Shown here: one piece after another, positions 6,687 through 8,489 of the stretch | Layout of the letters: the number at the start of each line of letters is the position of its first letter | Position numbering within the stretch: position 1 is the stretch's first letter | Source: an uncultured Oscillospiraceae bacterium | Lineage (GTDB): Bacteria; Bacillota; Clostridia; Oscillospirales; Oscillospiraceae | DNA: 11,841 nt | Assembly (NCBI GenBank): GCA_934659445.1 | Contig: CAKUHV010000050.1 | Span: forward strand, 1-11,841 | Reading direction: 5' to 3' | Notes under the pieces: model-generated | Databases searched by the model: none | What the model was told of the DNA's origin: nothing | What the model saw: only the letters and a program-made list of their open reading frames with translations | Translations under genes and position numbers: made by a program

Positions 6687-8489
6687 ATGAAGAAGCTCTT
6701 GTCCCTTGCACTGGCGGCCGCTATGGTCTTCACGCTGGCCTCCTGCGGCAAGAAGGAACCCACTCCCTCCGGCTCCTCCTCCACCCCCACCATCGTGACC
6801 CCTTCTACCCCCGAGGAGAAGGAGGCCGCCCGGGCTGAGATCCGCAACGCCATCTCCCTGCTGTTCGACCGCAACTACATCGTCGAGAAGATCGGTCAGG
6901 CCGGCCAGGTGCCCGCCTCCTCCTTCGTGGCTATGGGCATGACCAACCCCGACGGCACTCAGTTCTATGAGACCGCTGGCCACAACGAGGGCTATGCCGG
7001 CTACTACAATGTGGCCGCCGATGCCTATGAGGACAACTTCACCCAGGCCATCGAGACGCTGAGAAAGTACTACGCCTACGATGAGTCCACCGGCAAGTTC
7101 ACCAATTTCCCCACCCTGACCTATCTGTACAACACCTCCGAGGGCCACAAGGCCATCGGCGAGTACCTGCAGGCCGCTCTGGCTTCCGTGGGTATCGAGA
7201 TGCAGCTGGAGAACCAGGAGTGGAACACCTTCCTGAACACCCGTAAGGAGGGCAACTTCTCCATCGCCCGCAACGGCTGGCTGGCTGACTACAACGACCC
7301 CATCTGCTTCCTGGATATGTGGGTCACTAAGTCCGGCAACAACGACGTTCAGTTCGGCAAGGGCGCCCACAAGGATCTGGCCATCTACAGCCTGGACCTG
7401 ACCCCCTATGGCTATGACACCAAGGTGGAGAACGGCACCTGGGCCGAGACCTATGACGTGCTGATCTCCGACATCAAGGGCTGCACCGACAACGAGAACC
7501 GCTACGCCATGATGCACATCGCCGAGGATATGCTCATGTCCACCGGCTGCATCGTGCCCCTGTACTTCTACACCGACATCTACATGCTGGACGACTCCGT
7601 TCAGGGCTACTTCTCCAACCCCCTGGGCTACAAGTACTTCATGTACTCCACCGTGGACGGCAAAGGCGACACCATCTCCGTCTGCCTGGCCTCTGAGCCC
7701 GACACCATCGACCCCGCTCTGAACTCCGCCGTGGACGGCGCCACCATGACCGCCCACCTGTTCTCCGGCCTGGCCAAGTGGGAGCAGGATGCCTCCGGCA
7801 AGCTAATCCTGGCCCCCGATGCCGCCACCGAGCTGGTGGAGGGCGTCATGAATGACGACGGCACCGTGACCTACACCTACACCCTGCGGGATGGCCTGTC
7901 CTGGTCCGACGGCAAGCCCGTCACCGCCGGCGACTTCGAGTTCGCTTGGAAGCGCGCCGCCTCCGCCGAGCTGGGCGCTGACTACGGCTATATGTACGAG
8001 GTCGTTCAGGGCTACGGCACCGAGAACAAGGACGACCTGGCTGTGAAGGCTCTGGACGAAAAGACCCTGGAGGTCACCCTGGCCAACACCGTGGCCTACT
8101 GGAACGAGCTGCTGGCCTTCCCCGCCTACTTCCCCGTCCGTGAGGACGTGGTCGCCGACGAGGGCTGGGCCACCGATCCCTCCACCTACGTCTGCAACGG
8201 CCCCTACACCATCACCGGTTGGGACCACAACAGCGTGATCACCCTGACCAAGAACGAGCACTATGTGGACGCCGACAAGGTCACCATGAACGAGATCAAG
8301 TTCTACCTGTCTGACGACGCCAACAACATGCTCACCAACTTCGAGAATGGTTCCTGGCAGCTGATCGACGACGTGCCCACCAATGAGATCGCCAACCTGA
8401 AGGTCGAGTATCCCACTGAGTTCGTCGTGGCCGGCCAGATCGGCACCTACTACGTCTGCTGGAACATCAACGAGGAGATCCTGCCCTGA
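6687..8489 (+). CDS. oppA: OppA-type peptide-binding lipoprotein with circularly permuted domain order
   Basis: This is the solute-binding protein (family 5) that hands peptides to OppBC. The 600-residue lipoprotein starts at ATG 6687 behind AAAGGA (6673-6678), with a signal peptide ending in a lipobox LASC (Cys20), then a Ser/Thr/Pro linker to about 42. The order of the conserved blocks is unusual. Residues 43-323 are the normal C-terminal half: ISLLFDRNYIVEKI (56-69), LYNTSEGHKA (147-156), NQEWNTFLNTR (176-186), ARNGWLADYNDP (194-205), IVPLYFY (289-295). Residues 328-600 are the normal N-terminal half: ASEPDTIDPALNS (335-347), WSDGKPVTAGDF (406-417), LEVTL (461-465), NGPYTITGW (504-512) and the TYYVCWNIN strand (587-595), where the protein stops. 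Each half occurs once, and the sum is close to a normal mature OppA. A strong terminator follows. The family call is firm; that the product folds and works is inferred. Confidence 0.92.
   Translation: MKKLLSLALAAAMVFTLASCGKKEPTPSGSSSTPTIVTPSTPEEKEAARAEIRNAISLLFDRNYIVEKIGQAGQVPASSFVAMGMTNPDGTQFYETAGHNEGYAGYYNVAADAYEDNFTQAIETLRKYYAYDESTGKFTNFPTLTYLYNTSEGHKAIGEYLQAALASVGIEMQLENQEWNTFLNTRKEGNFSIARNGWLADYNDPICFLDMWVTKSGNNDVQFGKGAHKDLAIYSLDLTPYGYDTKVENGTWAETYDVLISDIKGCTDNENRYAMMHIAEDMLMSTGCIVPLYFYTDIYMLDDSVQGYFSNPLGYKYFMYSTVDGKGDTISVCLASEPDTIDPALNSAVDGATMTAHLFSGLAKWEQDASGKLILAPDAATELVEGVMNDDGTVTYTYTLRDGLSWSDGKPVTAGDFEFAWKRAASAELGADYGYMYEVVQGYGTENKDDLAVKALDEKTLEVTLANTVAYWNELLAFPAYFPVREDVVADEGWATDPSTYVCNGPYTITGWDHNSVITLTKNEHYVDADKVTMNEIKFYLSDDANNMLTNFENGSWQLIDDVPTNEIANLKVEYPTEFVVAGQIGTYYVCWNINEEILP

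Follow-up and report, generated by a model that had tools for sequence, protein, structure and literature searches.

A circularly permuted OppA-type binding protein encoded beside oppBCDF genes, and its canonical and rotated relatives

The binding-protein gene and its operon

The stretch of DNA analysed here, called the window, is 11,841 nucleotides long and derives from an uncultured Oscillospiraceae bacterium (GenBank assembly GCA_934659445.1, contig CAKUHV010000050.1, positions 1 to 11,841 of the forward strand). The gene at 6687-8489 is placed 3' of oppBCDF-type genes, and alignments confirm its predicted product as a circularly permuted OppA-type member of solute-binding protein (SBP) family 5. 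A pair of permeases and a pair of ATPases, all Opp-type, form the operon setting of an Opp/Dpp binding lipoprotein, and the product also carries the lipoprotein signal (LASC, found by eye, a presumed lipobox) and the conserved aspartate of such proteins, Asp201 (Table 1). A sequence-only reading of this stretch had claimed that the blocks that end every OppA here precede those that begin it, and had proposed aligning the two halves separately to OppA homologues and to the SBP_bac_5 profile, predicting the structure and looking for the same order in related genomes.

The alignments with DppE, OppA and SBP_bac_5 bear this claim out: overall, the solved OppA and DppE proteins are matched in their C-terminal part by residues 43-319 and in their N-terminal part by residues 324-597. 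In a phmmer search of PDB sequences, residues 390-597 corresponded to Bacillus subtilis DppE 78-286 (i-Evalue 3.4e-35), residues 51-217 to DppE 292-442 (2.9e-17) and residues 251-316 to DppE 447-513 (5.2e-9); matches to Bacillus OppA were swapped in the same way. Against Salmonella OppA the correspondence was 336-595 with 21-278, 51-81 with 288-318, 143-223 with 360-441 and 255-313 with 445-504, the pieces 51-81 and 255-313 being individually weak. Pfam SBP_bac_5 (PF00496) scored 213.9 bits on the whole protein against a gathering cut-off of 32.4, aligning residues 384-597 with profile positions 7-211. When the two parts were scored alone each matched above the gathering score, the C-terminal part to profile 216-367 (E 4e-24) and the N-terminal part to 7-211 (E 7e-40), again in swapped order. 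The NCBIfam OppA profile fell into two stretches on the window protein as against one on the canonical ortholog of locus L039, and the cut-off of the OppA equivalog PRK15104 (947 bits) was missed both by the window protein (208 bits) and by the canonical ortholog (209.7). Among the matches listed in PDB sequence searches with the window protein and those of L011, L238 and L147, none was collinear over the whole protein. Since its chain order departs from that of the SBP_bac_5 profile and of the solved members, the protein is classed as a permuted variant and not as an ordinary member.

Each half is present once (about 281 and 277 residues), as had been proposed, and the description of the gene as intact also holds, with no in-frame stop and with the presumed lipobox, putative ribosome-binding site and hairpin of Table 1 in place. 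M1-K3 and C20 are kept in at least 90% of 45 proteins of the window's type (type A, defined below). Residue 413 of Salmonella OppA, with which Arg195 aligns, is presumably a ligand contact, and we take residue 419, the counterpart of Asp201, to be equivalent to residue 501 of AliD; Asp201 is accordingly predicted to bind the peptide amine. The source of that role is Asp501 of AliD, as given in part of the AliD study (PubMed Central, PMC11192437).

Table 1. Features of the operon and of the permuted gene, in window coordinates
Feature	Position	Strand	Remarks
oppB-type permease gene	2595..3524	+	BPD_transp_1; same position in related operons
oppC-type permease gene	3540..4598	+	BPD_transp_1 and OppC_N
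oppD-type ATPase gene	4614..5639	+	ABC_tran and oligo_HPY
oppF-type ATPase gene	5636..6625	+	ABC_tran and oligo_HPY
Putative ribosome-binding site GAAAGGA	6672..6678	+	8 nt 5' of ATG; read from sequence
Circularly permuted SBP family 5 (OppA-type) gene, type A, 600 aa	6687..8489	+	
Signal peptide and lipobox (LASC, residues 17-20, Cys20)	6687..6746	+	Read from translation; lipobox presumed
Linker, residues 21-42	6747..6812	+	
C-terminal part of canonical protein, placed first, residues 43-323	6813..7655	+	OppA/DppE/SBP_bac_5 matches
Arg195 codon	7269..7271	+	Aligns with Salmonella OppA residue 413; invariant in 45 type A proteins
Asp201 codon	7287..7289	+	Aligns with OppA residue 419; invariant in 45 type A proteins
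Fused junction of old C- and N-termini, TVDGKGDT	7650..7673	+	Junction alignment
N-terminal part of canonical protein (lobe 1 up to crossing), placed second, residues 324-600	7656..8486	+	
Terminator-like G+C-rich hairpin 3' of operon	8525..8563	.	Consensus match only

The top NCBIfam models for the four transporter genes, in gene order, were Opp3B/OppB, Opp3C/Opp4C, OppD and OppF, all with scores below their cut-offs; the oppF-type product does reach the printed cut-off (408) of the dipeptide ATPase PRK11308. Elsewhere in the window, 1195-2268 is an open reading frame (ORF) of 357 amino acids in which several hydrophobic stretches can be seen by eye and to which no Pfam family matched at E 0.001, an ORF at 8654-9736, 3' of the hairpin, weakly matches AAA/STAND NTPase families, and 9881-10213 encodes a SpoVAC/SpoVAEB sporulation membrane protein, which may indicate an endospore former.

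Cut sites and operons of the relatives

The order of the window protein recurs in many related genomes, alongside others. At 80 genome loci, kept from 507 in a contig scan whose ranking was biased towards the window's order, 47 genes were canonical, 16 had the window's cut (type A) and 17 a different one (type B), and a third order (type C) was found in 12 genomes of a 250-genome draw from one family. In terms of the C-terminal (C) and N-terminal (N) parts, type B runs C95-281, N1-277, C2-87, with limits that shift by a few residues, and type C runs about C208-281, N, C8-183. Thus the circular permutation claimed by the sequence-only reading stands; its picture of one odd gene does not, given three cut sites across many genomes. 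Compared half by half, canonical and rotated relatives share about 70-85% identity.

In OppA numbering, cut A falls between 278 and 288, cut B after about 353 (residues 214-593 of the type B model match OppA 1-353) and cut C at 441-445, from the end of the type C alignment to the window's next piece, or between 450 and 456 in B. subtilis OppA. Cut A lies in the loop that follows the TYYVCWNIN strand, where the chain first crosses between the lobes: the last residue of the window model to be structurally aligned, 589, stands at AliD 299, and domain III of AliD, which equals lobe 2, spans 297-582 by the domain limits given in the AliD study (PMC11192437), so that the cut is just beyond the passage from lobe 1 to lobe 2. 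The same limits put both canonical chain ends in one lobe, domain I, as had been supposed. Residues 43-323 of the window protein therefore comprise lobe 2 and the last strands of lobe 1. Cuts B and C lie inside lobe 2 and retain both inter-lobe crossings.

Most complete rotated ORFs open with a signal peptide of the lipoprotein type followed by a linker, and their stop comes at most 8 residues past the last aligned residue. Junction length differs from that of the window by at most 2 residues in 15 other type A loci and by at most 1 in the 17 type B loci, and six type C rows align at the junction within 2 residues. In a distant type B group that includes L236, L237 and L238 the signal peptide lacks a lipobox, and an oppB-C-D(-F) cluster comes after the gene; a related fused gene at L243 has its frame broken. 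The junction probes cover about C218-281 and N1-105, and cuts within that stretch would escape them; because the probes are blind there, we dropped the claim that selection had brought all cuts into lobe 2.

The setting of these genes is largely shared. At least oppF stands directly upstream of the binding-protein gene in 75 of the 80 loci, and oppB-C-D-F in most, with mostly 70-90% identity to the genes of the window. Three of the other five loci (L029, L067, L080) start at a contig edge; type A locus L007 has no opp gene within 3 kb upstream on its contig, and canonical locus L034 none within 10 kb upstream. Type C loci keep the gene order at about 52-73% identity, and oppBCDF-type genes are likewise found near distant genes of types A and B, some of which stand upstream of the transporter genes instead of downstream. 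In two metagenome-assembled genomes (MAGs) of the Atopobiaceae (L013:11854-17487, L032:4409-10035) a canonical binding-protein gene (about 30% identity) and then another oppBCDF set come after a type A gene. Loci L127 and L142 of genome G046 hold between them a canonical near-type gene, cut by the locus end, and a type C gene, and genome G006 two different type A genes (L085, L091).

No leftover half of the same gene was detected beside rotated genes when each locus's own protein and the window's halves were searched by tblastn against the rest of the locus (81 sequences, the 80 loci and the window; E 0.01). Matches arose in three loci only and were rejected: at L021 a 208-residue C-half fragment (11763-12389, directly 3' of the type A gene; 30-33% identity) belongs to a different family 5 binding protein, at L043 the match was 24% identical, on the opposite strand and about 7 kb off, and at L074 it was 35% over 40 residues (E 0.002). 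Locus L139 (genome G042) has two canonical binding-protein genes in direct tandem, a possible starting arrangement for rotation by duplication.

Rotated genes are not confined to one strain. In the 250-genome draw, 49 genomes matched at 1e-60 and 15 were verified as permuted (3 type A, 12 type C), with only four or five candidates scored for each genome listed, an order check that covered all but 11 of the 49 matches, and permutation in two of the 15 (G001, the centre of the draw, and G005) known beforehand. A set of 391 genomes gave 92 matches and 10 verified permuted genes; in a set of 398, 294 matched, and among the matches listed the junction is spanned by 11, of which 10 were verified as permuted and the other has its frame broken. 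From the class of the Atopobiaceae genome G003, 10 of 296 genomes matched at 1e-30, and 5 were permuted, all type A. These counts include the centre genomes G001 and G003, which were picked as permuted, and some genomes may occur in more than one draw.

BLAST of the two halves gave the order C-N in 118 of 120 homologs, the window's own included, in a list that was ranked by similarity to a C-N query and is therefore uninformative on how common this order is. A further 64 proteins (P0003-P0066) match at 98-100% identity and 100% coverage, with 599-601 residues. The other two of the 120 have odd orders. P0002 (879 residues, on a Joint Genome Institute contig) reads N-C-N, its two N parts being 73% identical to each other; as N1 is similar to P0069 and canonical genes and N2 to type A genes, a true duplication intermediate is unsupported, and P0002 may be a recombinant or a chimeric contig. 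P0071 (716 residues, C-C-N) is of type A but repeats C172-281 internally in tandem.

Trees, constraint and fold models

Trees were inferred by quick searches, with branch support from the Shimodaira-Hasegawa-like approximate likelihood ratio test only. In approximately unbiased (AU) tests on 57 binding proteins, from which L192 (type A) and L013_2 (canonical) had been dropped beforehand, a single clade was rejected for type A (p 7e-53), for type B (p 9e-69), for type B minus its most distant members (p 2e-53) and for all permuted proteins together (A, B and C; p 7e-5), and was not rejected for type C (p 0.375). Starred branches of the 59-row tree require at least four changes for type A, three for B and two for C. 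Taking at least two for A from the AU test, at least three for B and at least one for C, the sequences imply about six or more rearrangements, if the canonical order is ancestral.

In the OppBCDF tree of the near subfamily (74 loci, 1312 columns) the window groups with 11 canonical operons (98, starred), L021 stands among canonical operons (98-99, starred) and five changes are needed for type A. AU tests on 60 of these rows rejected a single clade of type A (p 3.6e-8) and a grouping of the window either with the L001 group (p 4.6e-4) or with L021 (p 7.6e-5). The binding-protein data for the near subfamily discriminate less well: all type A proteins in one clade obtained p 0.051 and, on another set of rows, 0.104, a type A clade without the L021 group was preferred (p 0.879), the L021 group with the window's group obtained p 0.049, and a position of the window beside its transporter's canonical partners was accepted (p 0.544). 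Near-duplicates and some long branches had been dropped before the 60-row transporter tests and before the binding-protein tests that gave p 0.104, 0.879, 0.049 and 0.544. Rotation repeated in place fits both data sets.

The ratio of nonsynonymous to synonymous substitution rates (dN/dS) was 0.049-0.156 in nine permuted pairs and 0.063-0.142 in three canonical pairs. The ligand-motif arginine is present in 35 of 37 type A, 18 of 29 type B, 13 of 14 type C and 99 of 110 canonical rows. The structure prediction proposed earlier was run with AF2 (AlphaFold2): the type A model reached a mean predicted local distance difference test score (pLDDT) of 83.6 and a predicted template modelling score (pTM) of 0.83, the type B model 78.7 and 0.73, and both match OppA over the stretch visible to a sequential aligner. 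Residues 1-33 of the window protein have pLDDT below 50.

Probable repeated rotation, its rivals and known systems

We favour, at a probability of roughly 0.85, the reading that the window encodes a permuted OppA-type protein whose operon relatives are either canonical or cut at A, B or C, likely through separate rotations, and that the fold and the capture-and-delivery cycle were likely kept. The product would be a lipid-anchored peptide-binding protein feeding the OppBCDF importer encoded directly upstream. Its old ends, both in domain I in canonical proteins, are joined by a short turn and new ends opened at the first inter-lobe crossing, so that the chain runs through lobe 2 and then lobe 1, and homologous structures suggest that the lipid anchor would sit on lobe 2. 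The changes of order were likely separate gene rotations, several of them inside the operon, and probably arose by partial tandem duplication followed by trimming, much as the sequence-only reading had supposed with its tandem duplication and loss of the outer halves; the rotated proteins likely retain the canonical fold, as the models predict, and presumably the capture-and-delivery cycle.

Several observations weigh against this reading. The canonical order, which the solved members have, is assumed to be ancestral, and counts of changes cannot separate gain from loss. The near-constant junction length is also compatible with a single origin of the fused form, and the binding-protein data of the near subfamily tolerate one type A clade and prefer one without the L021 group. 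The dN/dS pairs are all among relatives, the window itself being in none. The motif arginine is missing from 11 of the 29 type B rows, the absence of upstream opp genes at L007 departs from the shared operon setting, and the sequential structural aligners (Foldseek and VIA) could see no more of type A than its N part and, for type B, no more than OppA 1-353.

The alternative that survives best is that type A arose once in the near subfamily and then spread by replacing the canonical gene in sister operons, in which case repeated rotation in place would be illusory for the relatives of the window. In its favour, the binding-protein data fit a type A clade without the L021 group better than the free tree, do not reject all near type A proteins as one clade, and place the window in a smallest starred set of 17 type A proteins and one canonical protein (98). 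The transporter genes reject one type A clade, however, so that this spread would need several exchanges of genes between operons; the L021 group falls among canonical genes in both trees, the binding-protein data accept the window beside the canonical partners of its transporter, and the distant type A and B lineages remain separate. We regard it as a serious though less probable account.

Considerably less likely is that the rotated chain is active only as a domain-swapped dimer, lobe 2 pairing with lobe 1 of another chain. Type A does open the first of the two crossings by which the lobes are covalently linked, but types B and C retain both, and the type A model is confident as a monomer. 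That the gene is a decaying or non-functional fusion is very improbable: rearranged genes are often pseudogenes, and the reading frame of one type B copy (G1007) is broken, but the window retains its open frame, lipobox and operon position, other permuted pairs show dN/dS of 0.05-0.16, and ligand residues are conserved. Least of all can we credit an assembly artefact in which two tandem oppA genes were joined wrongly, for although repeats are prone to assembly errors and P0002 and P0071 have odd orders, the possibility is excluded in practice by the 64 near-identical full-length proteins that share the order, and 16 type A loci on genome or MAG contigs, the intact signal peptide, junction and stop, and low dN/dS in other type A pairs speak against it as well.

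Several known systems are comparable. OppA and DppE of SBP family 5 (PDB 1ola, 8are, 8ay0) are homologous to both parts and share the predicted two-lobe fold, the aligned ligand residues and the oppBCDF-type partner genes; the window protein differs in its swapped N- and C-terminal parts and in an anchor at the lobe 2 end. The closest precedent is TpMglB-2 (Tp0684) of Treponema pallidum, which is described as a natural circularly permuted, lipid-anchored ABC binding protein ('Type Ic / Cluster Bc'), with ligand binding and conformational change demonstrated in vitro, relatives found chiefly in treponemes and in Gram-positive bacteria, often from the gut, and anchoring suggested by its authors as one possible reason (PMC4990184). 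TpMglB-2, as described there, has a Type I sugar-binder fold with one permutation that adds a hinge crossing, whereas sequence and model of the window protein match family 5 OppA and not the Type I / Cluster B fold, with three cut sites and with canonical and rotated relatives in the same operon type. Among the PMC titles and beginnings of abstracts listed, a scope outside which most subscription papers fall, none concerned a family 5 protein with a natural permutation.

For the circularly permuted GTPases YRG/YlqF and cpRAS, several natural permutations per family are reported (PMC2430557); these are GTPase domains and not rotated relatives within one operon. Permutation by duplication inside one family has its standard example in the DNA methyltransferases, for which intermediates have been described (PMC3320104); here, in contrast, the canonical and rotated relatives are close half by half and share their partner genes.

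All three observed cuts would shift the anchor to lobe 2, and any benefit of rotation might lie in that move. A broader version, in which a rotating gene of Bacillota and the class of the Atopobiaceae was permuted repeatedly in place at three preferred sites, which each time took the ends, and with them the anchor, out of lobe 1 and into lobe 2 as a change of tethering under selection, is put forward only tentatively and is in our view less likely than not. Linear profile searches split a rotated gene into two partial matches and may have concealed this order. Circular permutation is often inferred between distant proteins; here close canonical and rotated relatives adjoin the same transporter genes, a natural experiment that makes the roles of chain order, of covalent inter-lobe links and of the position of the lipid anchor directly testable in a binding protein. 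The gene has likely rotated several times in evolution without losing its predicted function.
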